This document shows positions 20,383-33,867 of a stretch of 64,000 bases of DNA, one piece after another (positions within the stretch are counted from its first letter, which is position 1; every line of letters begins with the position of its first letter). The position numbers and the translations under genes were made by a program. The DNA comes from Thermococcus henrietii (GTDB taxonomy: Archaea; Methanobacteriota_B; Thermococci; Thermococcales; Thermococcaceae). The DNA is taken from assembly GCF_900198835.1 (NCBI RefSeq), contig NZ_LT900021.1, positions 496,001-560,000 on the forward strand. The letters are read 5' to 3'. The notes beneath the pieces were generated by a model. That model worked only from the letters and a program-made list of their open reading frames with translations. It made no database searches and had not been told where the DNA came from.

Positions 20383-20413
20383 TTCCACGCCACGTGGAAA
20401 ACTTTATTTATAT
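20383..20413 (+). promoter_or_regulatory. Palindrome and TATA box before the alpha-toroid gene
   Basis: TTCCAC (20383-20388) and GTGGAA (20394-20399) form an inverted repeat with a five-base centre. It starts right after the taw1 stop and ends directly before the TATA-like ACTTTATTTATA (about 20401-20412). The position is right for a repressor or activator site over the BRE. A terminator hairpin for taw1 is an alternative. Confidence 0.45.
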
Positions 20414-20446: not shown

Positions 20447-22705
20447 ATGAATATGAAAAGGGTATTAACTATGATGCTACTCATAGTGCTTTTAACGATT
20501 CCGTACTCCGCCGCCGGTAGCGTCCTAGATAACGCTTCTAGGGTCTTCATCGGGGTCAATTCGTATGTGGACACCGTTCCGCTGAAGGCGTACTCACTGC
20601 TCGCACTTGATTCAATGGCCGGAAAGGTTCACAACGAGACCCCCCTTTTTGTCTCCATTGAAAACATTACCAAGAGCCTGCTCTCAATGCAGAATCCGGA
20701 CGGGGGTTGGGGCTATCATGTGAACGAAATCAGCACCCCCCAGGATACTGCACTTGCGTTGATAGCTCTCAACTATTCCCTTGCAGTTTCGAGGGAGTTT
20801 GGGGTTGGGTTGGATGAAAACGCCCTTCTAAAGGCCCTTCGAGAGGGGGAGAGCTATCTCCTGGACTCCTACTCCTCTCCTGGCTGGGGCTACGTTTCCG
20901 GTTCCGTTCCCAAGTTCTATCCAACCGCGCTCTCCCTCTGGGCCCTCGGCACCCTCGGGCTGAAGTACTCCAACAGCCTCATCGTTAAAACGGCCGCAGA
21001 TTTCATAGCAAACGCCTCGGACCTTTCCCCAGAGTACAGGGCCCTAAGGCTGATTGCCTTCCATGCCGTTGGTTATCCAAACGTGACCCCATACCTTTCC
21101 AAGTGCCGCGAACTGCTCTCAAGCGACACCCTAAACGAGTATCAGAGGACAATACTCACCTACGCGGTCATACTCTACGACCCCCTAAGCTTCGACGTCG
21201 GTAGGTCCCTTGCGATACTCGAGAGCTTGGGGATGAGGAACGATACATACTTACTCGTGACCGAAGGGGTTCCCTTCATGACGAGGAACGACTTGATGGC
21301 AACGGCATACGCCGTCATGGCGTTTTCTAGCGTTTCCGACGTTCTCGTCAATGCTTCTCCCCGCAATCCTCGGGGTTTCCTTTACAACGACCTTGTCTCT
21401 CGTCAGAACCCCGACGGTGGCTGGCCGCTCCTCAAGAGCGGTATCTCCTCGGCGAAGGCCACTTACTACGCCCTCCTTGGAATCTCTGCCTCTGGGAATC
21501 CGTCTGGAGCCGTTGTGAAGAAGGCCGTCGCGTGGGCCAGGAACCACCTCCCCTCAGCCGAGGAGGCCGCCCGGGTTCGTGGCACCGTAACGGATGACTA
21601 CTACTACACCGCCATGATACTCATCAAATTTGGGAATTTGTCCTCCGCCGAAAAGGACGAGTTAATCAACTTCACCCGGTCCCTTGAATCTGCTCCTGGC
21701 CTTTGGAGGGGTCTCTTTGGTATTCCTCAGCCATACCAGACGGCCCTTGGTCTGAATCTGCTCCTGGCCCTCGGTTACAAGGGGAATGACGTGGACCTCG
21801 CCGCAAATTGGCTGCTCTCAATAAGCCCCTCCGGCTGGGGCGTTAGGCTTAATTACTTCATGCCCGCCACCACCGGGATGGACGTTCCAACAACTGTCAC
21901 CGTGCTCGAGGCCCTCTCTAAGGTAGTGTCCCCTGAGAAGCTGACTCCCCACGTCAAGTGGCTGATTGAGCAGAGGCTTCCGAGCGGTGTCTGGGGATGT
22001 TTCCGCGAGAGCACCAACATACTCAACCAGCGGTTCTACGCAGCTCCATCGATGGAATACACCGTGAGGGTCGCCGAGGTCCTGAGGAAGCTTGGTTATG
22101 ACTACTCCAGGGATGTTCTCCCGTGGGTTCTCAAGCACGCCCTTGACCCCAACATGAGCACGGTTGATGAGGGCTTGGCCCTCCAGTTCCTCAGCGGCTT
22201 CAATCTCCTGCCCCCCACGACCCTCTACGAGGTAATTGAGAGCTTGGAGAGCGGAGGTCAGTGGTACCTCAACTACTGGGAGGGCTATGACTTCATCGTC
22301 CAGGAGATTGCCTCATCTCTCCTTCCAGAGACTGTGATAACGCTCGTTAAGGGCAACTTAACGCCGAGTGCCGGAAACCACATAATCATAGCCCCCATCG
22401 GTCTCGTGAACGTTTCCCGCTACAATCCATTCGTCTCCGTCTATGTCAATGGCACTTCCGTTGTTGTAAACGGTCGTGAGTACCCGCTCTCAACGAGCAT
22501 CGTCCTGGTGCCCGGAAGGACCCAGGATGGGGGCTATGTCCTCGTAATCCTCGTCGGTGAGGATGCCGTTGATGGCGTCCCCGTGCTCTTCACGAGTGGC
22601 CTCTACCGCTACCTCCACGGTGCATACATGGTTCTCAGCGCCGTTGATAAGAACAACGATGGGAAAATTGAACCTGAAGAAATAACACTGCTGGGGTTGG
22701 GGTGA
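20447..22705 (+). CDS. Secreted prenyltransferase/squalene-cyclase-repeat (alpha-toroid) protein with EF-hand
   Basis: 752 residues. A signal peptide (MKRVLTMMLLIVLLTIPYSA) is followed by repeated helix-turn units carrying QNPDGGWGYHV and QNPDGGWPLL, the hallmark of alpha/alpha-toroid proteins such as prenyltransferase beta subunits and squalene cyclases. The export signal makes a soluble cytosolic terpene enzyme unlikely; a polymer- or polysaccharide-binding role is possible. The extreme C-terminus has DKNNDGKIEPEE, a good calcium-binding EF-hand/dockerin loop. It begins a long same-strand cluster with a tubulin-like GTPase and prepilin-like genes. Specific function unknown. Confidence 0.78.
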   Translation: MNMKRVLTMMLLIVLLTIPYSAAGSVLDNASRVFIGVNSYVDTVPLKAYSLLALDSMAGKVHNETPLFVSIENITKSLLSMQNPDGGWGYHVNEISTPQDTALALIALNYSLAVSREFGVGLDENALLKALREGESYLLDSYSSPGWGYVSGSVPKFYPTALSLWALGTLGLKYSNSLIVKTAADFIANASDLSPEYRALRLIAFHAVGYPNVTPYLSKCRELLSSDTLNEYQRTILTYAVILYDPLSFDVGRSLAILESLGMRNDTYLLVTEGVPFMTRNDLMATAYAVMAFSSVSDVLVNASPRNPRGFLYNDLVSRQNPDGGWPLLKSGISSAKATYYALLGISASGNPSGAVVKKAVAWARNHLPSAEEAARVRGTVTDDYYYTAMILIKFGNLSSAEKDELINFTRSLESAPGLWRGLFGIPQPYQTALGLNLLLALGYKGNDVDLAANWLLSISPSGWGVRLNYFMPATTGMDVPTTVTVLEALSKVVSPEKLTPHVKWLIEQRLPSGVWGCFRESTNILNQRFYAAPSMEYTVRVAEVLRKLGYDYSRDVLPWVLKHALDPNMSTVDEGLALQFLSGFNLLPPTTLYEVIESLESGGQWYLNYWEGYDFIVQEIASSLLPETVITLVKGNLTPSAGNHIIIAPIGLVNVSRYNPFVSVYVNGTSVVVNGREYPLSTSIVLVPGRTQDGGYVLVILVGEDAVDGVPVLFTSGLYRYLHGAYMVLSAVDKNNDGKIEPEEITLLGLG

Positions 22706-22711
22706 AGGCCC

Positions 22712-23875
22712 TTGAGGGCCCTGATAATAGGAATCGGACAGTGTGGGACGAAGATGGCCGACCTCTTCGCGCTGGTCGACTTTGAAACCCTCGCGGTAAA
22801 CACCTCCCGCGGTGACCTGGAGTACCTCAAGCACGTCCCGCAGGACAGGAGGATCCTGATAGGCGAGAGCATAACGGGGGGCAAAGGAGTCAACGCAAAT
22901 CCAATACTGGGCAGGGAGGCCATGAAGCGCGACCTGCCGTTGGTGATGCGCAAGATAAACTCCATAGTCGGCTACGAGGACGTTGACATATTTTTCCTCA
23001 CCTTCGGCTTCGGCGGTGGAACCGGTGCCGGTGGAACGCCCGTCCTCGCGGAAGCCCTGAAGGAGGAGTATCCTGACTCACTCGTGGTTGCCATTGGCGC
23101 CCTTCCGCTCAGGGAAGAGGGCATAAGGCCCACAATCAACGCGGCTATAACGATAGACAAGCTCTCCAAGATTGCCGACTCCATAATCGCCATAGATAAC
23201 AACAAGCTGAAGGAAACCGGCGATGACATAAGCAGGGCCTACGAGAGTATTAACTATACCATAGTCGAGAGGATAGCCTCTCTTCTGGCCCTCGTGGATG
23301 TCCCCGGCGAGCAGACCCTCGACGCGAGCGACCTCAAGTTCGTCCTCAAGGCCTTTGGAAGCTTTGCCACCGTTGGCTACGCCAAGGCCGAAGCGAGCAA
23401 GGTGAAGAGCCTGTCGAGGTTAATCCTTAAATCCTTTGAGAGCGAGGGTCTCTACCTTGATGCCAACATAGAGTCCGCCCTCTACGGCCTCGTCGCAATA
23501 CACGGCCCGCCGGAGGTTCTCAAGGCTGGAGACATCTTTGAGGCCCTCGATTACCTCACGAGCAAAATCCGGGGCAAGCAGATTTTCCGGGGCTTTTACC
23601 CTGACCCGCGCGAGAGGGAAGTTGAGGTCGTCACGCTCCTCAGCGGAATATACGAGAGCAGGAGCATCGAGGAAATCGTTAAAACTGCCAAGCAGTACGC
23701 GAGGTCCTTCATGGAGGCCAAGAAAGAGGCCGAAACCAAGAAGAGTGAACTGCTCAGTGGTCTGCCGGATTTCGACGATGTCTACAACGCACCGATTATT
23801 GGGGACGTTGTTGAGGATGACGGTCCCGATGTGGAGAGTGTTGTGAAGAGCCTCAGGAGGAAGAGAAATGGTTGA
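22712..23875 (+). CDS. Tubulin/FtsZ superfamily GTPase, CetZ/FtsZ3 type
   Basis: 387 residues. The nucleotide-binding motifs are visible in order: GIGQCGTKM (T1, tubulin-like GQCG), FGFGGGTGAGGTP (T4, the signature), and DASDLKFVL (T7 catalytic loop, with the Asp that triggers hydrolysis in the next subunit). Thermococcales carry FtsZ1, FtsZ2 and a third CetZ-like member; this looks like the latter. In haloarchaea CetZ proteins control cell shape and motility rather than division. It starts with TTG at 22712, seven bases after the previous stop, and overlaps the next gene by eight bases, so cotranscription in this surface-protein cluster is likely. Confidence 0.85.
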   Translation: MRALIIGIGQCGTKMADLFALVDFETLAVNTSRGDLEYLKHVPQDRRILIGESITGGKGVNANPILGREAMKRDLPLVMRKINSIVGYEDVDIFFLTFGFGGGTGAGGTPVLAEALKEEYPDSLVVAIGALPLREEGIRPTINAAITIDKLSKIADSIIAIDNNKLKETGDDISRAYESINYTIVERIASLLALVDVPGEQTLDASDLKFVLKAFGSFATVGYAKAEASKVKSLSRLILKSFESEGLYLDANIESALYGLVAIHGPPEVLKAGDIFEALDYLTSKIRGKQIFRGFYPDPREREVEVVTLLSGIYESRSIEEIVKTAKQYARSFMEAKKEAETKKSELLSGLPDFDDVYNAPIIGDVVEDDGPDVESVVKSLRRKRNG

Positions 23876-24491
23876 CCTAACGGTCAGGGACTCGGTTGAG
23901 GTTGCCCTCGAGCTCGACGAGAAGTCCGTCTACTCACACATCGCCCACGAAAGTGCAGAGGACATAGTCAGAATTATCTCCTCCCTCGACGCAGAGAGGG
24001 CAAAGCTCAGGGGGGAGGTTATCTATTACGCCGACGACTGGGATGCTCTCATACGGGAGAGGATAGCCAAAGGAAAGCGTCACACGGCTTTTGACTTCTA
24101 CAATCCGACTCTACTTGACATCTGGGAGGAGAAGGTTAAGTTTGGAAAGAAGCTAAAGCTGATTGAGAAAGCCGTTTACTCTATCCTGGGGGTTCTCGTT
24201 GCTGGAACTGGGGTTGCAACAATATTAACAGGCTCTCCATTTGTTCTCATCGGTCTCTTGGTAATCCCCCTAGCAATCGCCGTGAGGGATAGGGTGAAGA
24301 GCTCGCTCGACCTTATCTACTACGAGCTGACCCAGTTTTTCATTGACGAACTCAGAGAGATTGTTTCAAAACACGGCCTTAAATCGGAGAGGTACAAGTT
24401 TAAACTTTTCACTGGGGGTTATTTTGGGGTAGAGACTAGGAGAACACCTTCTGGCATATTTGCGGTTGTTGAAGACAAATCTGCGGAGTAA
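23868..24491 (+). CDS. Membrane protein with a helical hairpin, CetZ-linked
   Basis: 207 residues. A charged N-terminal region (about 1-95) precedes two hydrophobic helices (AVYSILGVLVAGTGVATIL, PFVLIGLLVIPLAIAV). The C-terminal part is again soluble and helical (DLIYYELTQFFIDELREIV). I do not recognise the family. Its start overlaps the end of the tubulin-like GTPase gene, so it is a good candidate membrane partner for that cytoskeletal protein. That role is inferred from context only. Confidence 0.7.
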   Translation: MVDLTVRDSVEVALELDEKSVYSHIAHESAEDIVRIISSLDAERAKLRGEVIYYADDWDALIRERIAKGKRHTAFDFYNPTLLDIWEEKVKFGKKLKLIEKAVYSILGVLVAGTGVATILTGSPFVLIGLLVIPLAIAVRDRVKSSLDLIYYELTQFFIDELREIVSKHGLKSERYKFKLFTGGYFGVETRRTPSGIFAVVEDKSAE

Positions 24492-24493
24492 CC

Positions 24494-24503
24494 GTTAAAT
24501 ATA
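24494..24503 (+). promoter_or_regulatory. TATA box for the prepilin genes
   Basis: GTTAAATATA lies about 33 bases before the first prepilin start and just after the preceding stop codon. It gives the prepilin run its own promoter within the cluster. Confidence 0.5.
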
Positions 24504-24535
24504 GTCCAATCCAACTATTGATGGAGGGGGAGATT

Positions 24536-25150
24536 ATGGGGTTAGTCCTTAAAAGGCGAGGCCAGATATCACTGGAGTTCATGCTGGTGTTCGCGATAAT
24601 GATGGTTATGCTGATGTACTCGGTCAAGAGCGTTGGCTTTAATTCGAGCTCTCCTTCCTCGGGAACGCTGGCCATTCAAATTGCCCTTGAGGAGAAGAGC
24701 GTCGCCAACGTGATAGCAGGGGCCATAGACCAGGTCTATGCCCAGGGGCCCGGCTCAAAGGTCACGGTTTACGCTCACTTCAACCTGCTTCGCAATTCGA
24801 AGTACCTCAAGAACGCCTTTAACCTCACGTCTCCCCAAGTTCGGCTTATGTTCCTTGGAACTGAGGACCCACTTTTCCCAACTGGGGCCGAGAACTCTGT
24901 GGTTGTCGTCGCGGTTTCCAACGCCGGCTCAACTCCGGTGATTTCCGGCTCCAACAGGACGGGGGTTTGGGTTCAGACGTACTTCCTCTACAACTCGACG
25001 TCCACGACGGGTTTTACGCTTAGCTTTGCTCCATCAGACGTTCCCACAACGATGAGGGTGGTAGTGGAGTGGAACCCTTCAAAGCCCGTTTCCATGACCT
25101 ATGATAGCACCTCCGGGACACTCCACATAAACATTAGGCCAGGTGGATGA
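24536..25150 (+). CDS. Class III signal-peptide (prepilin-like) protein 1
   Basis: 204 residues. The N-terminus MGLVLKRRGQISLEFMLVFA is a textbook archaeal prepilin signal: basic residues, Gly-Gln cleavage site, QISLEF with Glu at +5, then a hydrophobic helix. Such proteins are cut by the FlaK/PibD-type peptidase and inserted through the hydrophobic helix. The remainder is a predicted beta-rich head with sequons. GGAGGGGGAG upstream decides the ATG at 24536. It opens a run of six related genes. No assembly ATPase or platform gene is nearby. Confidence 0.85.
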   Translation: MGLVLKRRGQISLEFMLVFAIMMVMLMYSVKSVGFNSSSPSSGTLAIQIALEEKSVANVIAGAIDQVYAQGPGSKVTVYAHFNLLRNSKYLKNAFNLTSPQVRLMFLGTEDPLFPTGAENSVVVVAVSNAGSTPVISGSNRTGVWVQTYFLYNSTSTTGFTLSFAPSDVPTTMRVVVEWNPSKPVSMTYDSTSGTLHINIRPGG

Positions 25151-25151
25151 A

Positions 25152-25580
25152 ATGAGGGGTCAGGTGAGCCTTGATTTGCTCTTTGCAGTGACGATAATCT
25201 CGATAACGATGCTCAGCGTGATGAACGTCGCCCTGAGTGAGAAGACCGAGACAGAGGTTATCGGAACCTCCGCGCAGCTCAAGGCCTTCGCCATAGATTT
25301 GAGGGGAACCGTCGCGAGACTCTACGCGGCCCCCGGCATGACCGTGCTGAAGACGGCCCCCCTAAAGCTTCGGTCTGGGGACTGGATTAACGTCACCCTC
25401 AAGTCGGAGGGTTACCTCATAGTAAAGGCCCACATAGATGGAAAGGACTACGTCGTGGTTCAGAAACTTCAGGTTTCCCCCGGTGCCAACAGCTCCGTGA
25501 TACTTACGCCCTCAAGTGAGGGGTTTAAAATGGAGTCAAGGAGGCTCTCCGATGGTGTTGAGGTCACGGTCACAACGTAG
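25152..25580 (+). CDS. Class III signal-peptide (prepilin-like) protein 2
   Basis: About 142 residues. MRGQVSLDLLFAVTIISITM has a Gly-Gln cleavage site and Asp instead of Glu at +5, followed by the helix. The head (about 30-142) is small and beta-rich, with NVT and NSS sequons. ATG at 25152 follows the previous stop by one base, and the earlier GTG at 25143 would give only three extra residues. It overlaps prepilin 3 by 29 bases. Probably a minor pilin-like subunit. Confidence 0.8.
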   Translation: MRGQVSLDLLFAVTIISITMLSVMNVALSEKTETEVIGTSAQLKAFAIDLRGTVARLYAAPGMTVLKTAPLKLRSGDWINVTLKSEGYLIVKAHIDGKDYVVVQKLQVSPGANSSVILTPSSEGFKMESRRLSDGVEVTVTT

Positions 25581-26025
25581 GGGTCAGACCGCTGTGGAAC
25601 TGCTCTTCATAACCGCGATAATCCTGACTGGGATAGTTTATATTATCCCTTCCGTTGTTCACACCAATAAGACCGTCTCCACAACGGACGCCTTCAGAAC
25701 AGTCGGTTCGGACGTCTGTACGTACCTCAACACCGGTGTTATCGTTAACGATTCAACCCACGCACCCCTCAACAACATCGTTGAACTCTGGAACTACACC
25801 CCTGTTGGATGTCGGCTCGTTGGCCTCTCAGTTGTTCCAGTAAACGGCACGCTTAACGTTTCAATTGTGTACTCGTACCCGGACCCCGTCACGAAGTCGG
25901 CCTTCGTAGGCAACGTTACGGACTTTCTTAAGCTCAGGCTCTCATCGATTCAGGGCTTCCGGCTCGTTGGTGATAACCTGTATTACGGCGGGATGAAGGT
26001 TAACCTCACGGTGGTGGTGAGATGA
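25552..26025 (+). CDS. Class III signal-peptide (prepilin-like) protein 3
   Basis: About 157 residues. MVLRSRSQRRGQTAVELLFI carries the Gly-Gln site and Glu at +5, then the hydrophobic helix. The ATG at 25552 is chosen because GGAGG lies seven bases upstream; the longer frame would start inside the previous gene without a signal. Head is beta-rich, with NVS and NVT sequons and cysteines at VCTYL and GCRLV that could pair. Four-base overlap with the next gene. Confidence 0.8.
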   Translation: MVLRSRSQRRGQTAVELLFITAIILTGIVYIIPSVVHTNKTVSTTDAFRTVGSDVCTYLNTGVIVNDSTHAPLNNIVELWNYTPVGCRLVGLSVVPVNGTLNVSIVYSYPDPVTKSAFVGNVTDFLKLRLSSIQGFRLVGDNLYYGGMKVNLTVVVR

Positions 26026-27791
26026 GGCGCGGTCAGCTCCTGAGCTTTGATGCCCTCCTCGCGGTCGTTATCGTCATCTTCATGCTCGGTGCTGTTAGTG
26101 CTACCTCCGATAACCTTAAGTCTGGCCTTACAAACCTCCTCGGCTGGTACGATAGGACCAGCATCCCAGATACCATGCTCGATGTGCTCCTTAAAAGCCC
26201 GGGAAGTCCGCCAAACTGGAGTGAAAACGTTTCAACCCTTGCGGTCCCGGGCCTTAGGTCCTATTCCGGTCAATACGTCGATTACAACAAGGCAGTTGCC
26301 TTCTTTGACCTCCTGAAGAACAACGATTCCCGGGTCGAGAAGGCTCTACTGAACCTCAGTCTAAAGCATCCGTTTCTCCTTGACTTTTACCTCGGCAAAT
26401 GGACGTTTAAGGCCAACTTCTCATGGAACCCAAACGCGGGAGGGGGCATTCCACCTGGTTTTAGTGTTTATAACGGCAGTTGTTCGGTTGCAGGAACGAC
26501 GAACATAGACTTTACTCAGCCCACGATAATTCCCTGCGACCCGGAGTTTTTCTCCCATGGAAGCCTAAGTATAAACTCCAACTCCGATATCTGTATAGTT
26601 CACGAATTCAGGAGCGTTGGTTCCTCTCACCTGTACATATCCAGCGGTGGCAACCTCGTGGTGGGTGGGGACTGGGTTATAGATGGAGCGGTTACTACCG
26701 ATGTGGACGGAAGCGCCTACATTATGGGAGCCCTAGTGATAAGGGGAGAAGGTTCGAGGACTATTAACATAAAACACGACCTTTACATCTTTGGCGAGAC
26801 CTCAACTCGACCCTTAATCTCTGTAACCGGCGCCGCCACGATAAACATCGGAACCCCTGGATGCACGCCTGGCACCCAAGTTCCAGGATGTACCCTCGGT
26901 AACCTTTATGTGAACGTGAACGGCGTTTGGTACGCCGCCAACCGGTCCCCGATAACCGACCCCAGCTCATGGTATAAGTGGACGGGAAGTGGATGGGAAA
27001 AGCTTGACAGCCTCGCGCCTCTGGAGGGAACCGTTTTCGTGAGGGGAACCCAGCTTGTGATTAACATCGCTGGTCATCCCCTTTCCTCCGACTGGACCCC
27101 GCCTTCATCCCCCGAGTGCCTTAACTACGGCTCGGGCCAGCCCCTGACGATTTCGTCCCTTGAGGGCAACTACACATATCCGCAACAGCTCAACGTGAGC
27201 CAGGCGTGGAACCGCGTCGCGTACCTCAACGGCTCGTTCCTCGTGAACCCGACCAACGTTTCCAACGTGTTTGCTACGATGAACGCCTCTAGTTGGGTCT
27301 CGTACTCGGAGAGGAACACTGTAATGAGTCTATTCAAGTACAACAGAACCACGTGGATTGTAGGTAACTCCAAGGGCATAATCTTTGGAGGTGTCCTCAG
27401 GTACTCGATTCCCAACTACGCTCTCCTCAAGTTTGTTGTTCCCAACGAAACTGGCTACGTCCTCATCATGGTAGTTGATGGTGGAAACCTAAAGGTCCTC
27501 GGCGTTTGGAAAACTTCGGGAACGTCCATGGTAATGGGCCAGATATGGGAACTCGCCAATGGTACCGTCAGAACAGTGGCAACTTACAGGGGCTCCAGTA
27601 ACTCCCTCACTGTCCCCTGGGGAGATGTATTCAGCTCCCCCGGCGGGGCGGGTCGGCCGGTGCTCATGTACCTGTACTCAAACACCTTCACGCTGCCCGT
27701 TGAGATGGTTGATGAAGGCGACATCGGGGTTCTTCTTAGTCCAATGTACGAGCCCCTCCTTGTAAAATTGTGGGTGTGGGATGAGAGATGA
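26022..27791 (+). CDS. Large prepilin-like protein 4 with a beta-helix-like segment
   Basis: 589 residues. MRRGQLLSFDALLAVVIVIF keeps the basic Gly-Gln site and helix but lacks the usual Glu at +5 (Asp at +6). A stretch at about 190-290 is rich in short repeated strands (LSINSNSDICIVHEF, LYISSGGNLVVGGDWVIDG, AYIMGALVIRGEG) and looks like a beta-helix. The whole ectodomain is far larger than a standard pilin. It could be a tip or adhesin subunit on a pilus or a membrane-anchored exoprotein. Many sequons are present. Function not established. Confidence 0.72.
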   Translation: MRRGQLLSFDALLAVVIVIFMLGAVSATSDNLKSGLTNLLGWYDRTSIPDTMLDVLLKSPGSPPNWSENVSTLAVPGLRSYSGQYVDYNKAVAFFDLLKNNDSRVEKALLNLSLKHPFLLDFYLGKWTFKANFSWNPNAGGGIPPGFSVYNGSCSVAGTTNIDFTQPTIIPCDPEFFSHGSLSINSNSDICIVHEFRSVGSSHLYISSGGNLVVGGDWVIDGAVTTDVDGSAYIMGALVIRGEGSRTINIKHDLYIFGETSTRPLISVTGAATINIGTPGCTPGTQVPGCTLGNLYVNVNGVWYAANRSPITDPSSWYKWTGSGWEKLDSLAPLEGTVFVRGTQLVINIAGHPLSSDWTPPSSPECLNYGSGQPLTISSLEGNYTYPQQLNVSQAWNRVAYLNGSFLVNPTNVSNVFATMNASSWVSYSERNTVMSLFKYNRTTWIVGNSKGIIFGGVLRYSIPNYALLKFVVPNETGYVLIMVVDGGNLKVLGVWKTSGTSMVMGQIWELANGTVRTVATYRGSSNSLTVPWGDVFSSPGGAGRPVLMYLYSNTFTLPVEMVDEGDIGVLLSPMYEPLLVKLWVWDER

Positions 27792-29917
27792 GGCGGGGAT
27801 TCATATTCACGCTTGATGCCGTGCTGGCTCTCTTCCTAGTTTTGATAATGATAACCGCCATAACCACCGCTGAGAGCCAAGTTCAATCGGTTTACAAAAC
27901 CCAGATGAGGATGGGGGAGTTGGGTGATGCGAACGCGATGCTAAAACTGCTCAGAACCGTTCCGCTGAGTCAGCTGGTTCCGGCTAACGTGATAGATAAC
28001 TGGGAATCCGGCTCCGACCCGGTTCTGAACCTGACCTTGGTTACCCCCGACATGAGCCCCCTTGAGATAGCCGCCACCTACTGGGCAGTAAGCCCGCTTT
28101 ACCCATCGAAGGATTACCGGAAGAAGGCCTCAATAATCATCGGTTACATTCTGAACTCGACGCTCAAGGGCTACAACTACGAGCTTCTCATAAACAACTG
28201 GACGAACACATTCCTGAGTAAGGGAACCTACAACTACTCCCTCGCAAAGGACGTTTCCGCCGCCACCCTCGTGCTCAGCGGTTACGCCTACAACCAGACT
28301 CCGAGGGGCTACGTTGCAAGGGCGTTCCTCAGCAAGCTGAGGGCGAAGGTTACGAGCTACGTGTACCAGGGAGACTACATTTCAACCCAGCACAGCAAGA
28401 AATGGATTCAAATTACCTACATTATACCTACCAGTCAGTTTCCGCTTAACACAACGATTATCAACGTCACCTGGTACTTTGAGGCTGCTGTCGTTGATTC
28501 CACTTATCGTGCCTACATCAATGGAGAGCCCGTCAGTTGCTTCCCTCAATGGAGCACCATGACCTTTAAAGAAATCACTGACGATGGAAGTGGAAGCTGT
28601 AACCTGGTTGAGAACGTGCAGAAGAGCGTAAACGAGAGTACTGACACGAACTTTACCGTTGAGGTATACAACAGCGGTGGCGTGTCTGGTGAAGACGGTG
28701 CTCAGCACATCATAATAACTTACAAGACATCTCAGGTATCCACCTTTAGGTATCCCCACTACTATCACTTCGCGGACGTTAGGGCAAACGACTCAATTCA
28801 CATAGAGAAGTACGTTTTTGTTCCCGGTAACCTTACTGACTTGAGCATTAAGATAGCAGGTCAGAACATCAAAACGGTAACCGCTGCGATTAGGGTTTAT
28901 GGAAGTGTATCGAAGAGTTTCTCTCTCACTAAGGTAGGTGGATACTTTGTTGCCACCAACGGAACGCTTGCGGACATAGTCAGGGACATGGGTTACAACT
29001 ACTCTGACCTGTCGGGAACGTATTTCACGATACTCTTCAACGTCACTTGGGATGGGAGCGGTGAGTTGCATTTGGACGGTAGGGACTCCTACGTTTACGC
29101 CGACTACATACCGTTTACTGCAATGAGTCTGTATTCTGTGGACGTTACTGATGTGATACCCCCGTACTATTGGTCAGGCGGTCCCGCTTTGGGGTACTTC
29201 TATCACAATGCGGAGTGGGAGTGGGACATACCGGAGTACGCGACACCGCTGTACGTTACATTCCAGCTTCCATGGTATCACTCCTCTTTCAGTGATTGTC
29301 GTCAGAAGGTTTCTATCCTCATGAACTCGTCAGCGAATCAGTGGAGAACCCTTTACTATGCTCCTGACTACAATCCATTCATAGACGCCTTCGCCAGATG
29401 GGGATACACTAGGGTTACCAGGGATTACCTGGATAGAATCATTGGGAATGCCCTCCATACCGGGTTGAACGCCTTTGAGCTAGACTTTGGAAGCTGTTAC
29501 TACGTTGCCCCCAAGTACACACTGGCTTCTGTCGTTTACCTCCTCAACGCTTACGCCCCTTACGGCAACGTTAAGCCCTACCTCATGCAGGGATACCCCA
29601 AGGTTAAGGCCTACAACTTGACCTACGTTTACAACCTTGGTGGACGGAACTACACCGCCTCCATCATAGTTGGAAGCCTCAACGCCGTGACATCTGGGGA
29701 GTACCTAAACATTACCGCCTGCAAGTTGGACCCGACCAAGTACGCAGTTGATGACGCGATACTCAGGCTCTTCAGGAACCTCGGGGGGAACGGCTGTACC
29801 AAGCCAATCTTGGTGAACCTAGGGGACACGCTCATAGACTACGTTTCCCTTCCGGGTGTTCCGCGGTCAATATCACCCATTACAATCACCCTCAGGATTT
29901 GGAGGGTCGGAGGATGA
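27788..29917 (+). CDS. Large prepilin-like protein 5
   Basis: 709 residues. MRRGFIFTLDAVLALFLVLI has the basic residues and Gly, with Phe in place of Gln at +1 and Asp at +6, followed by a membrane helix. The ectodomain is aromatic-rich and beta-rich, with many N-X-S/T sites and cysteines (SCFPQW, GSCNLV, SDCRQK). It overlaps its neighbours by four bases at each end, so translation is coupled. It belongs to the same family of long Thermococcales exoproteins with residual prepilin-like N-termini; whether it is processed by the prepilin peptidase is uncertain. Confidence 0.7.
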   Translation: MRRGFIFTLDAVLALFLVLIMITAITTAESQVQSVYKTQMRMGELGDANAMLKLLRTVPLSQLVPANVIDNWESGSDPVLNLTLVTPDMSPLEIAATYWAVSPLYPSKDYRKKASIIIGYILNSTLKGYNYELLINNWTNTFLSKGTYNYSLAKDVSAATLVLSGYAYNQTPRGYVARAFLSKLRAKVTSYVYQGDYISTQHSKKWIQITYIIPTSQFPLNTTIINVTWYFEAAVVDSTYRAYINGEPVSCFPQWSTMTFKEITDDGSGSCNLVENVQKSVNESTDTNFTVEVYNSGGVSGEDGAQHIIITYKTSQVSTFRYPHYYHFADVRANDSIHIEKYVFVPGNLTDLSIKIAGQNIKTVTAAIRVYGSVSKSFSLTKVGGYFVATNGTLADIVRDMGYNYSDLSGTYFTILFNVTWDGSGELHLDGRDSYVYADYIPFTAMSLYSVDVTDVIPPYYWSGGPALGYFYHNAEWEWDIPEYATPLYVTFQLPWYHSSFSDCRQKVSILMNSSANQWRTLYYAPDYNPFIDAFARWGYTRVTRDYLDRIIGNALHTGLNAFELDFGSCYYVAPKYTLASVVYLLNAYAPYGNVKPYLMQGYPKVKAYNLTYVYNLGGRNYTASIIVGSLNAVTSGEYLNITACKLDPTKYAVDDAILRLFRNLGGNGCTKPILVNLGDTLIDYVSLPGVPRSISPITITLRIWRVGG

Positions 29918-32900
29918 AGAGGCGAGGGTTTGTAATAAACGCTACGGTCCTTGTTCTGCTCATACCCCTACTCCTGTTGCTCGCCACGTACAGTAACGTT
30001 ACGTCCTACGTAATACAGGCCCAGTCCCAGGCGACGCGTTTAAAGACGACCCAGGACGTTGTCTCCTACCTCCAGCTTGACCTTCAGAACGTTATGAGGC
30101 TCTCCCTTCAGCGAGCCCTTGTTCTGAGCATCGCCTACGTTACCACCGTTCAACCTCTGGACAACGCCCAGCTTGCACTTGAGAGCTTGGTTAAGTACGG
30201 CAAGTACTCCCAAATCAGCAATGCTGGGCCCGAGTGGGTGTCCCGGGAGGACCAGTTCATGGGAAACGCCACCCTCCTTAAGTGGCTTGAGAACATGAGA
30301 GACTACCTTAAGAAAATGGGGTACATCATGGTCACACCACCTACCCAGATAGTTAACAACGTGAAGCTCACTATCGCTCCCCTCGACTCCTTCCACATCG
30401 TAGCCAACGTAAGCATCCCCCAGATTGTCATAAAAGACACATCCGGAAAGATAGTCTACAACTCCAGCATTCCCCCCAGGGGCTCTCTGTACGTTGTTGT
30501 ACCAATAACGAACCTCGAGGACCCTCTAATTGCCTACTTAACCAAGGGCAGAATGTCGAGGGTCATCGAACCGTGCTCCTTTGCGTACCCGAACCTCACA
30601 CCTCCATACTACCTCCTCACGGGTTACGGCAGTGACCCAAGTACGTATCCTCTTAGGTTCGCTGCCCCGTTTTCCCCCACTATTTCAAGCGATAAAGTGT
30701 ACTACGGCGACACATACCCTGGGGATGGAGCCCTGGCCTACGTCCTCAGGGACAGTCCGAGTACTGCCCCAACGGTTCCCTACGTCTTTGGAACCTCCAT
30801 AAACGGTTCCCTCGTTTCCCCATCATCCGTCCTTGGAGACGGGGACATGGGTGTCTTGGTCTTCTCTGGAAGGGTTGGTCAAGCGGTTCAATGGTGCAAC
30901 GATAGCTTCAACAAACGCGTTGAATTCACGCTCTCCGGCGTAACCAACCATAGCGTTGTCCTCCTTAAGTTCAACCCCTCTGCCGTCCCGTTTTCAGAAA
31001 TCTCCCACAACGGGTCCCTTGCCGAAATGAGAATATACACCTCGACCTGCCAGCTCGCTAATTACTGGATTGAAAAGTGGGACTCGAACGAGATTCTAAT
31101 ATGGCTCAACGTGACCGGAACGGACTACTATATCTACTACTCTCCTACTTCCCAGGTTCAGCCGAGCAGGGGCTATCTTTCGAACGTCGTTGGGAACAAC
31201 TACTACACGAACGTTACCGTTTATCCAGGTCAGCGCGTCTTCTTGTTCAACACCACTGGGTCAGTCTTTGTGCGCTATAACGTTACCGCAGATGAGAACT
31301 CCGGTTTCAACGGTGGCGTTGAAGTGCTGACACCCTCTGAAGGCCTTACAAGCGTTCTAAACGTCACTTTGGATTACCCCTATAGTGTTAATGACGTTCA
31401 AGTTCCGATATACCTAAACTCGACATGGGCATCGCGTATTCCCCATTATGGGAATGAGTCCAGGATTGAAGTATACTCCGACCCGGACTTCACGGAGAAG
31501 GTTCCCTTCTGGATTGAGTACTGGAACGATAGCGGTGCCCTGATATGGGTCAGGACGAACTTACCCGGCAACGTCTACATTAAGTTCGGTGAAGACCTTC
31601 CCCTTACCCGGGGCAACGGAGATGAAGTGTTCCTGTTCTTCGACGACTTCAGCGGCAGCTCCCTGAACACCTCAAAGTGGTACGTTAAGAACCCGCGCGG
31701 AAGCTATTCCGTGAGCAACGGAATCTTAAGCTTAAAGGGAAACAACAAGGCAAGTAACCCCGACGTCTGGCTGTGGACGAAGAAAACGTTTCCCTACTAC
31801 CGCTACGTTATCGGGATGAGGGTGTACATAAAGAACCAGCCATTCTGGATGTGGTACATAGATAACGATGGATGGGGTTGGATGGAGCACATCATTGGAC
31901 TGTACGGGCACCTGGGGGACTTCGACGTTAACAGCGGAGACTTCGATGATGGGATTGAGGATGGCGGTAAGTATACCAAAAACAGATGGAGCTATGTTGA
32001 GGTTGCAGTCAGGGACTATTACTACAATAGCTACCATCTTGCTAGCTTCACAACTTACCAGACGCTGAATCCGTTCGTCTGGAACTGGAGCGACCAGAGC
32101 GAGGTTAGTTACTATTACAGGTATTGGCAGGATGGGTGGAATTATTATCTGGCTACATACAACACCTCAATTGGCCTCGGCCAGTTTTATAAAGGCCCCA
32201 CGGAGTACGACTTCATCTACGTTAGAAAATACCTCGACCTTTATTACCTCACCGAGAGCGTCAAGCAACTTACCTCTTCCGTTCCTGTATCGGTCCAGCT
32301 CGTTGACAACTGGACGACGGCTGGAAGGCTGTTCATACTCAAGAACTGGACGGAGGTCCTGTCGAGGTATCAGACCGGAACATGGCCGGTGAACGTCCCC
32401 AATCGCTATGAGGTAGACATCATTCCCGCATCAACGCTGGCCTTGAACTTCACCCACGAGCCCAATTCTGTGGTTTCCCAGAACTCAAACGCTGACTTGG
32501 AGGTAACCCCAATCGGCAACCTGAGCGTATACCTCGTAGTCAACAATACCGCCGACAACTCAGCTCACTTTGCGTGGGTCTTCTGGGCCCCATATCCATA
32601 CAAGGTTATCACTCCCGTTCTTGGCGTTCCGGAACAGAAGCCGCCGACTGGCAACTATGTGAGCGCCAAAGTCTTTGACATTCAGCCGTTCATAAGCTGT
32701 GTTGTCAATGCCAGGTACTTTGGCGTCGCTGGAGCGCCCTCGTTCTTCGAGCGTCTTGAGGGCGGAAGTACTGCCCACAGAGCACAATACCTCGCCCTCG
32801 CCCAGGCGATGCAGAAGGCAGTGTACGGTCGCGTTAAGTATCCGATAGGTCTCGTCAGCTTCATTCTCCCGAGGAACCTTCCGGCAAACCTCAACTTCCT

Positions 32901-33117
32901 AATCCGCGAACAACCAGCCGTTGATTACATATACCTGGATTACTCCGACTACCCCGGAAACGACCCCGGTGCAATGAAGGTTCTGGGAATTTCGGCAACC
33001 GGCGGAATCAGCACGACTCCAGTTCTCGACCAGAACTTCTACCTGACGCTCCAAACCGCCCAGCTAATCTTCGGGCCCTACGCGGCAGACCTGCTCGTTC
33101 CCCTAACATCTGGGTGA
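29914..33117 (+). CDS. Very large exoprotein 6 with DUF2341- and LamG-like regions
   Basis: About 1067 residues, the last and longest of the series. The N-terminus MKRRGFVINATVLVLLIPLL keeps the basic residues and Gly before a membrane helix but no acidic residue. DUF2341-like units appear at about 330-420 (FNKRVEFTLSGVTNHSV) and 480-560 (VPFWIEYWNDSGALIWVR), then a concanavalin/LamG-like domain (FFDDFSGSSLNTSKWYV). These are typical carbohydrate-binding or adhesive modules. ATG at 29914 with GGAGG upstream overlaps the previous stop. A cell-surface adhesin is the best guess. Confidence 0.68.
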   Translation: MKRRGFVINATVLVLLIPLLLLLATYSNVTSYVIQAQSQATRLKTTQDVVSYLQLDLQNVMRLSLQRALVLSIAYVTTVQPLDNAQLALESLVKYGKYSQISNAGPEWVSREDQFMGNATLLKWLENMRDYLKKMGYIMVTPPTQIVNNVKLTIAPLDSFHIVANVSIPQIVIKDTSGKIVYNSSIPPRGSLYVVVPITNLEDPLIAYLTKGRMSRVIEPCSFAYPNLTPPYYLLTGYGSDPSTYPLRFAAPFSPTISSDKVYYGDTYPGDGALAYVLRDSPSTAPTVPYVFGTSINGSLVSPSSVLGDGDMGVLVFSGRVGQAVQWCNDSFNKRVEFTLSGVTNHSVVLLKFNPSAVPFSEISHNGSLAEMRIYTSTCQLANYWIEKWDSNEILIWLNVTGTDYYIYYSPTSQVQPSRGYLSNVVGNNYYTNVTVYPGQRVFLFNTTGSVFVRYNVTADENSGFNGGVEVLTPSEGLTSVLNVTLDYPYSVNDVQVPIYLNSTWASRIPHYGNESRIEVYSDPDFTEKVPFWIEYWNDSGALIWVRTNLPGNVYIKFGEDLPLTRGNGDEVFLFFDDFSGSSLNTSKWYVKNPRGSYSVSNGILSLKGNNKASNPDVWLWTKKTFPYYRYVIGMRVYIKNQPFWMWYIDNDGWGWMEHIIGLYGHLGDFDVNSGDFDDGIEDGGKYTKNRWSYVEVAVRDYYYNSYHLASFTTYQTLNPFVWNWSDQSEVSYYYRYWQDGWNYYLATYNTSIGLGQFYKGPTEYDFIYVRKYLDLYYLTESVKQLTSSVPVSVQLVDNWTTAGRLFILKNWTEVLSRYQTGTWPVNVPNRYEVDIIPASTLALNFTHEPNSVVSQNSNADLEVTPIGNLSVYLVVNNTADNSAHFAWVFWAPYPYKVITPVLGVPEQKPPTGNYVSAKVFDIQPFISCVVNARYFGVAGAPSFFERLEGGSTAHRAQYLALAQAMQKAVYGRVKYPIGLVSFILPRNLPANLNFLIREQPAVDYIYLDYSDYPGNDPGAMKVLGISATGGISTTPVLDQNFYLTLQTAQLIFGPYAADLLVPLTSG

Positions 33118-33123
33118 TGCAAA

Positions 33124-33867
33124 ATGAGCATTGAGAACCTCCTGTACTCAATAGGAGAGGGGGTAGAACGCCTCGCATTTGGATTTAAATCTTTCCTTTT
33201 CCCTGAACCTTCGAGGGAGCCTCCATCCTTTAGGCTGACCTCTCGGCTCGTGAAGTCCCGCGTTACCGTTCACGAGCTCCTCAGCCTTCACCTCCAGCTG
33301 TGTTTCCTAACGTACCTCCTTCTCAACTTTGCCGCGGTACTCCTGACGAGGAACCCCCAGTGGGTTGTCGCGGTTGCGGTTCCGTACTTCCTTTACTTAC
33401 GTTATCTTTTTGGCCGCTACGGAAGTTTTCTTCTAGATGAGAAACCGTACCGGGTTTTCTATACGGTGATTTCAGCCCTATCCTTCTTGGCTTTTATTGG
33501 TTACTCCCTTGTCAGACTCTACCTTAAAAACGTCGTTGCCGTGTATCTATACGTCCTCGTTATTGCAATTTCGGTCCTGCTCTTTCGCTGGTACTTCAAG
33601 AGAACCTTCGGCAGGGACTACACCTACGGCACCGTTGAGGAGGTTCGTGGCGACCTGGTTAGGGTTTTCGTTCACGACGATATAGCGGCCAACGTTAAGC
33701 CCGGCCTTTACTGGCTTCCGGCCGTTCCAGATGCCGAACCCGGTAGAGTCGTTAAGGTCCTCGTGGAGGACAGAACCTTCAGGAGCGCCAAGCCCGTGAG
33801 GATAATCGAGGTTTACTTCTCTCAATCCTCCCAGAGCTCCACCGAGCCGAAAGCCGAGACCGAGTGA
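33124..33867 (+). CDS. DUF2101-family membrane protein
   Basis: 247 residues with about four membrane helices in the centre (LCFLTYLLLNFAAVLL, VVAVAVPYFLYLRYL, FYTVISALSFLAFIGY, AVYLYVLVIAISVLLF) and a soluble C-terminal beta domain (YGTVEEVRGDLVRVFVHDD). This is the pattern of Thermococcales DUF2101 proteins, whose function is unknown. It follows the giant exoprotein by six bases and ends the prepilin run, so it may help anchor or assemble that system. Its last 46 bases overlap a minus-strand gene. Confidence 0.72.
   Translation: MSIENLLYSIGEGVERLAFGFKSFLFPEPSREPPSFRLTSRLVKSRVTVHELLSLHLQLCFLTYLLLNFAAVLLTRNPQWVVAVAVPYFLYLRYLFGRYGSFLLDEKPYRVFYTVISALSFLAFIGYSLVRLYLKNVVAVYLYVLVIAISVLLFRWYFKRTFGRDYTYGTVEEVRGDLVRVFVHDDIAANVKPGLYWLPAVPDAEPGRVVKVLVEDRTFRSAKPVRIIEVYFSQSSQSSTEPKAETE

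Follow-up and report, generated by a model that had tools for sequence, protein, structure and literature searches.

The block lies on the plus strand at positions 20447-33867 of the window, i.e., of the whole 64,000-nucleotide stretch of DNA that was analysed, which corresponds to C1:496001-560000 of a complete 2.16 Mb genome (G000) with relatives among the Thermococcales. According to the ORF listing it comprises ten mostly overlapping genes, counting the alpha-toroid gene at its start and the DUF2101 gene at its end, and the junctions range from overlap to a gap of 26 bases. The preliminary description had the strand, the coordinates and the short or overlapping junctions right, but counted nine genes. 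Pfam and NCBIfam families recognized in the block are SQHop_cyclase_C, Tubulin, CetZ_C, DUF2341 (twice) and DUF2101; the transmembrane-hairpin protein and prepilin-like proteins B, D and E have no match in either collection. By a simple rule, a prepilin-like N-terminus is present in 9 of the 121 open reading frames of at least 100 aa in the window, and six of these nine form the adjacent run A to F.

Table 1 Genes and control sequence of the block, in window coordinates
Feature	Position	Strand	Remark
Promoter-like BRE/TATA sequence GGAAAACTTTATTTATA	20396..20412	+	Precedes toroid gene
Secreted alpha-toroid protein, 752 aa	20447..22705	+	SQHop_cyclase_C over cut-off
CetZ tubulin-like GTPase, 387 aa, TTG start	22712..23875	+	Tubulin and CetZ_C over cut-offs
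Transmembrane-hairpin protein, 207 aa	23868..24491	+	Candidate CetZ membrane anchor
Prepilin-like protein A	24518..25150	+	KRRG/QISLEF; Class_IIIsignal slightly under cut-off
Prepilin-like protein B	25143..25580	+	N-terminus MRG/QVSLDL
Prepilin-like protein C	25552..26025 (longer ORF from 25516)	+	N-terminus QRRG/QTAVEL
Prepilin-like protein D (PilD), 589 aa	26022..27791	+	N-terminus RRG/QLLSFDA
Prepilin-like protein E (PilE), 709 aa	27788..29917	+	N-terminus RRG/FIFTLDA
Prepilin-like protein F (PilF), 1067 aa	29914..33117 (longer ORF from 29899)	+	RRG/FVINAT; two DUF2341 matches
DUF2101 polytopic membrane protein, final gene	33124..33867	+	DUF2101, 244 bits

We infer that the promoter-like sequence ahead of the toroid gene would serve as an archaeal promoter for the whole block. 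In 22 of 32 loci a similar A-run with a TTTAT motif precedes the leading gene, and at locus L092, where the toroid gene is genuinely absent, the promoter-like motif immediately precedes cetZ. Scans for sigma-70 promoters and terminators returned chance-level signals only, and the sigma-70 model is not applicable to archaea.

Conservation of the neighbourhood, on which the preliminary description had made its proposal depend, was examined and is evident: order and strand of the block genes are the same in 32 of 32 loci from six genera, save for single-gene gaps in the homology search, and the DUF2101 gene is kept as the last member across the compared loci. In 24 named metagenome loci the gene order matches within the reach of their contigs. 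Among 74 good Thermococcales genomes, 73 contain cetZ and 73 the hairpin gene, and the sole good genome without cetZ, G044, lacks the hairpin gene as well. Together with the 32 loci in six genera, these counts rule out a block confined to a few species. Outside the Thermococcales, the CetZ profile gave zero matches at E 1e-60. Co-inheritance inside one order fits functional linkage and mere operon linkage alike, and cannot separate the two.

The association of CetZ, toroid and pilins is already known and as such of low novelty; the earlier supposition that these genes had not been described as a unit is incorrect, as the locus appears in two published accounts. Makarova (2016, PMC4858521, citing Szabo 2007) noted that most Thermococci encode a squalene cyclase and an FtsZ-family GTPase in their clade-1 type IV pilus loci, and placed DUF2341 proteins in a model as adhesins at the tip. 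Brown & Duggin (2023, PMC9856176) found 15 of 15 analysed Thermococcales cetZ regions next to pilin genes, with the gene order conserved, and put CetZ forward as a scaffold. The published locus is of the same type as the one described here: it has the CetZ/FtsZ-family GTPase, a protein resembling squalene cyclase, five to six pilin-like proteins and a DUF2341 protein, and its order is conserved. The available portions of both accounts (PMC9856176, PMC4858521) are silent on the hairpin protein as a candidate anchor, on the CetZ tail, on the gradation of acids at +5/+6 and on tip exchange. Judged from sequence, the present analysis adds the invariant GLPDFDDxY C-terminal peptide of CetZ, a neighbouring, co-inherited hairpin protein as its possible anchor, a graded +5/+6 acid pattern over A to F and an apparent interspecies swapping of the large tip-type genes. 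The block agrees with the clade-1 locus as defined in PMC4858521, in which a DUF2341 adhesin is accompanied by five or more other pilin-like proteins, and it is probably the minor-pilin/tip module of a clade-1 type IV pilus encoded in trans.

All six prepilin-like proteins have the leader of class III prepilins, i.e., a short basic leader ending in G or A, Q or F at +1, and a hydrophobic helix, and these N-termini are kept in nearly all orthologues (190 of 196 sequences were parsed). The acid at +5, a further hallmark of class III prepilins, is found in A, B and C and fails in D, E and F. Prepilin A has Q+1, S+3 and E+5 in 32/32 parsed orthologues, B has Q+1 and D+5 in 29/29, and C has Q+1 and, in 29 of 31, E+5. 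In D the +5 residue is hydrophobic and an aspartate is found at +6 (33/33), E shares the aspartate at +6 (33/33), and F has N+4 in all 32 parsed orthologues and no acid at +5. Because the canonical +5 acid is missing, D to F are named only prepilin-like here; as substrates of a prepilin peptidase, all six proteins are putative.

We propose that A to C, with the +5 acid needed for entry into the pilus stack, would prime the filament, and that D to F, with a shifted or missing acid and large beta-rich ectodomains, would form its cap, serving at the tip and in adhesion. The +5 acid is likewise absent from GspK, the tip pseudopilin of bacteria, in line with D to F as capping or tip proteins. PilF, with DUF2341 at 64 bits, is a candidate tip-adhesin. 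The AF2 model of PilE (pLDDT 80.3) has an N-terminal helix at residues 9-57 and a beta-rich ectodomain, for which a comparison with the PDB returned no full-length fold match and partial beta-sandwich-like matches with TM ~0.1. Sequence searches of PilD, PilE and PilF against solved structures gave no meaningful relatives. Two PilD orthologues (L094:8188-10689 and L098:8693-10795) have Bactofilin-type Pfam matches, i.e., to a polymer-forming beta-helix, and the match is over the cut-off in L094.

Given the missing +5 acid, D to F may alternatively stay in the membrane as surface proteins and never become part of a pilus. In a wider form of this alternative, A to F would make no pilus at all but would be S-layer-like or adhesin proteins held by a cleaved or uncleaved N-terminal helix, with CetZ shaping the cell beneath. 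Consistent with this, three of the six proteins are without the acid, D to F are much larger than pilins, and the locus is without an assembly ATPase; however, the sites of A to C are canonical for class III, and the machinery is encoded in the genome. The preliminary description, which had noted no assembly ATPase or platform gene, is accurate for the locus; the genome has one set at 292-296 kb, in which the T2SSE ATPase gene comes first and those of two T2SSF platform proteins next, adjoining a DUF515 gene (G000 C1:292311-296379). Since ATPase and platform proteins are encoded elsewhere, an ATPase-free locus does not imply a motorless machine. An assembly ATPase was found in 94 of 94 Thermococcales genomes searched, and in the 38 genomes measured it lies 31-971 kb (median 253 kb) from cetZ and is unlinked to it; a genome devoid of an assembly ATPase is ruled out, as the gene is found away from the block. 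In addition, a homologous Methanococcus locus with a DUF2341 protein produces pili. Taken with the canonical sites of A to C, these points make a pilus-free function of the block unlikely.

The trans-encoded set has two TadC-type proteins and probably belongs to clade 1. DUF515 has matches in M. jannaschii only among 14 control genomes. The archaellum has a separate ATPase, a prepilin peptidase-type gene is found near the archaellum genes, and an Arc_PepC gene is present at L087:2758-3972. Many of the clade-1 ATPase ORFs (e.g., G012:C1:1559218-1562838) span about 1200 codons and match in two parts, divided at residue 535, which agrees with the intein reported in PMC4390880; the G000 copy (697 aa) has no insert.

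The Epd pilus of Methanococcus maripaludis likewise has class III pilins and DUF2341 in its locus, and epdJKL elsewhere on the chromosome, about 205 kb from the pilin locus, a split comparable to that in Thermococcales. It differs in having eppA inside the pilin locus, whereas the Thermococcus block is without eppA, and we know of no CetZ or toroid in Methanococcus. A screen for transformation defects in M. maripaludis repeatedly hit type IV-like pilus genes, including the DUF2341 gene and eppA, and the same study lists T. kodakarensis and P. furiosus as competent. By analogy, the function of the block in the cell is likely adhesion and/or DNA uptake. It is possible, if doubtful, that the module serves a pilus dedicated to competence (DNA uptake), with CetZ marking the site of uptake, a reading that refines and overlaps with the tip-module explanation and that accords with the screen, with the competence of the two species and with the retention of the block by nearly all Thermococcales. 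On the other hand, attachment is also served by such pili, and CetZ, which the searches did not find in relatives from the same class and which is not known from Methanococcus, is hence not needed for uptake as such.

Profile scores place the block GTPase nearer CetZ than FtsZ: PF00091 (Tubulin) scores 105 bits against a cut-off of 33 and PF21011 (CetZ_C) 62 bits against 21.6, and the FtsZ model, at 122 bits, remains below its cut-off of 295. The best matches among solved structures are 4b46, 4b45 and 3zid, which we take to be Haloferax and Methanosaeta CetZ entries. The GGGTG-type loop GGGTGAGG is present and LDxSDL is invariant; GFGGGTGAGG is invariant in a 15-sequence CetZ alignment and shows a single change, G-A-G to G-S-G, in a larger set. 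At residues 347-358, the 33 Thermococcales CetZ sequences have a tail motif, LLxGLPDFDDxY, in which G350, L351, P352, D353, F354, D356 and Y358 reach 100%, compared with 93% for the first D of DD. The motif is flanked by a more variable linker before it and by a tail of variable length after it, and the terminus of the 3zid CetZ, NDLEEIY, resembles it.

The hairpin gene overlaps cetZ in the window and adjoins it across genomes. Its product has two neighbouring hydrophobic segments that form a TM hairpin at about residues 102-140, preceded by a long conserved N-terminal region and followed by a C-terminal alpha/beta tail; the AF2 model is mostly helical (pLDDT 79.9). At residues 11-90, top-residue frequencies are 0.77-1.0, compared with 0.35-0.54 in the membrane part. 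Outside the Thermococcales, the hairpin profile gave two weak matches, both C-terminal and in genomes without a CetZ match; the relatives in G096 and G109 are weak and cover the C-terminal domain only, and their surroundings gave no match to cetZ or pilins. Because relatives without CetZ have the C-terminal domain alone, the N-terminal region is the likely CetZ-associated part. Membrane proteins with the hairpin C-terminal domain were observed at L129:7640-8380 and L130:6135-6836, in genomes without a CetZ match.

A conserved CetZ peptide next to a conserved membrane protein suggests a tether, as in FtsZ-SepF. We envisage that the hairpin protein is membrane-embedded and has its two termini in the cytosol, that its N-terminal region would bind the invariant C-terminal peptide and so tether CetZ filaments, and that the tethered CetZ patch would gather or position the pilus platform. 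FtsZ with SepF, ZipA or FtsA likewise combines a tubulin-superfamily GTPase, a variable linker, a conserved C-terminal peptide and a membrane protein, whereas the Thermococcales candidate is an integral hairpin without Pfam, NCBIfam or fold match. That the hairpin protein is the membrane anchor of CetZ comes, on these sequence features, close to an even bet; alternatively, the CetZ tail could bind some other partner. The more specific proposal that the tail docks on the hairpin protein as a dedicated adaptor, i.e., a tubulin-superfamily anchor that has gone unrecognised, and thereby places pili with species-exchanged tip cassettes, is offered tentatively. Membership of the hairpin protein in a known SepF-, ZipA- or FtsA-type family was considered and rejected, given the absence of Pfam, NCBIfam or solved-structure relatives, and the protein might still work in a similar way. 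There is no PDB fold match for its model at E 0.001, and its profile gave a single, meaningless match to solved structures (E 0.56).

The toroid protein has an N-terminal hydrophobic segment, QxxDGGW repeats and a C-terminal EF-hand/dockerin-like stretch, and its profile matches solved proteins of the squalene-hopene cyclase type (best E 1.9e-17). Of 32 orthologues, a single one has the catalytic motif DxDD and none has DxDDTA, so that the toroid is probably not a cyclase and its assignment as a squalene-hopene cyclase is not supported. Activity outside the cell as a cyclase or prenyl enzyme, with a surface lipid as the substrate, would agree with the profile similarity, but is highly improbable in view of the missing motifs, of the secretion-type N-terminus and of a median pairwise identity of merely 34%. 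The secreted toroid would rather be a surface binding protein and no enzyme.

CetZ has a median pairwise identity of 85%, the hairpin protein of 56%, the toroid of 34%, and PilD, PilE and PilF of 30-41%. Across genome pairs, identity is uncorrelated with that of CetZ for PilE (Spearman 0.04) and PilF (0.01), and the two are correlated with each other (0.67). In quick trees, in which one long branch was noted, genera g2 to g5 hold together for CetZ, and the PilE tree, in which the genus label has to change 12 times, rejects a single g3 clade (p-AU 0.0001). The joint variation of PilE and PilF, apart from CetZ, and the splitting of g3 in the PilE tree argue that these genes have been swapped between lineages. 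The pattern is most simply explained by recombination that would have replaced the outer parts and retained the base, as expected under diversifying selection on surface-exposed proteins.

The decoupling of CetZ divergence from that of PilD, PilE and PilF, as well as the control of cell shape by CetZ in Haloferax (PMC9856176), could also mean that CetZ is merely co-transcribed and has a general role in cell shape like Haloferax CetZ1, the neighbourhood being an accident of operon history. We regard this as quite unlikely, since the gene order is held over six genera, hairpin protein and toroid are kept together with CetZ, and cetZ2 adjoins a different pilus regulon in some Halobacteria (PMC9856176). 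The CetZ-family protein CetZ2 of Haloferax likewise has a type IV pilus regulon (pilB2/C2) as its neighbour; unlike the Thermococcales block, this regulon belongs to another pilus clade and has its ATPase and platform within the locus (PMC9856176). The original suggestion, a surface machine linked to the cytoskeleton that might position pili or adhesins, fits all of the data, is supported in part and equals the published view. The full model, a clade-1 pilus tip module with a membrane-tethered CetZ positioning scaffold and exchangeable tips, lies by our estimate between a speculative proposal and an even chance. If true, it would describe a conserved cytoskeletal base that carries interchangeable tips; with tether and pilus link in place, Thermococcus, with its natural competence and amenability to genetics, would offer a direct test of a tubulin relative positioning a type IV pilus, and tip-gene exchange would suggest selection by adhesion specificity, kin recognition or virus escape.

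Individual loci illustrate the variation of the outer parts. At L079 and L081, CetZ is 99% identical and the adjoining toroid 47%, a contrast which suggests that only the toroid gene was replaced. DUF2341 was not found in the short PilF of L076 and L094. These two loci and L100, from two genera, combine a longer PilE (855-878 aa) with a short PilF (366-377 aa) and represent a third type of allele for this module.
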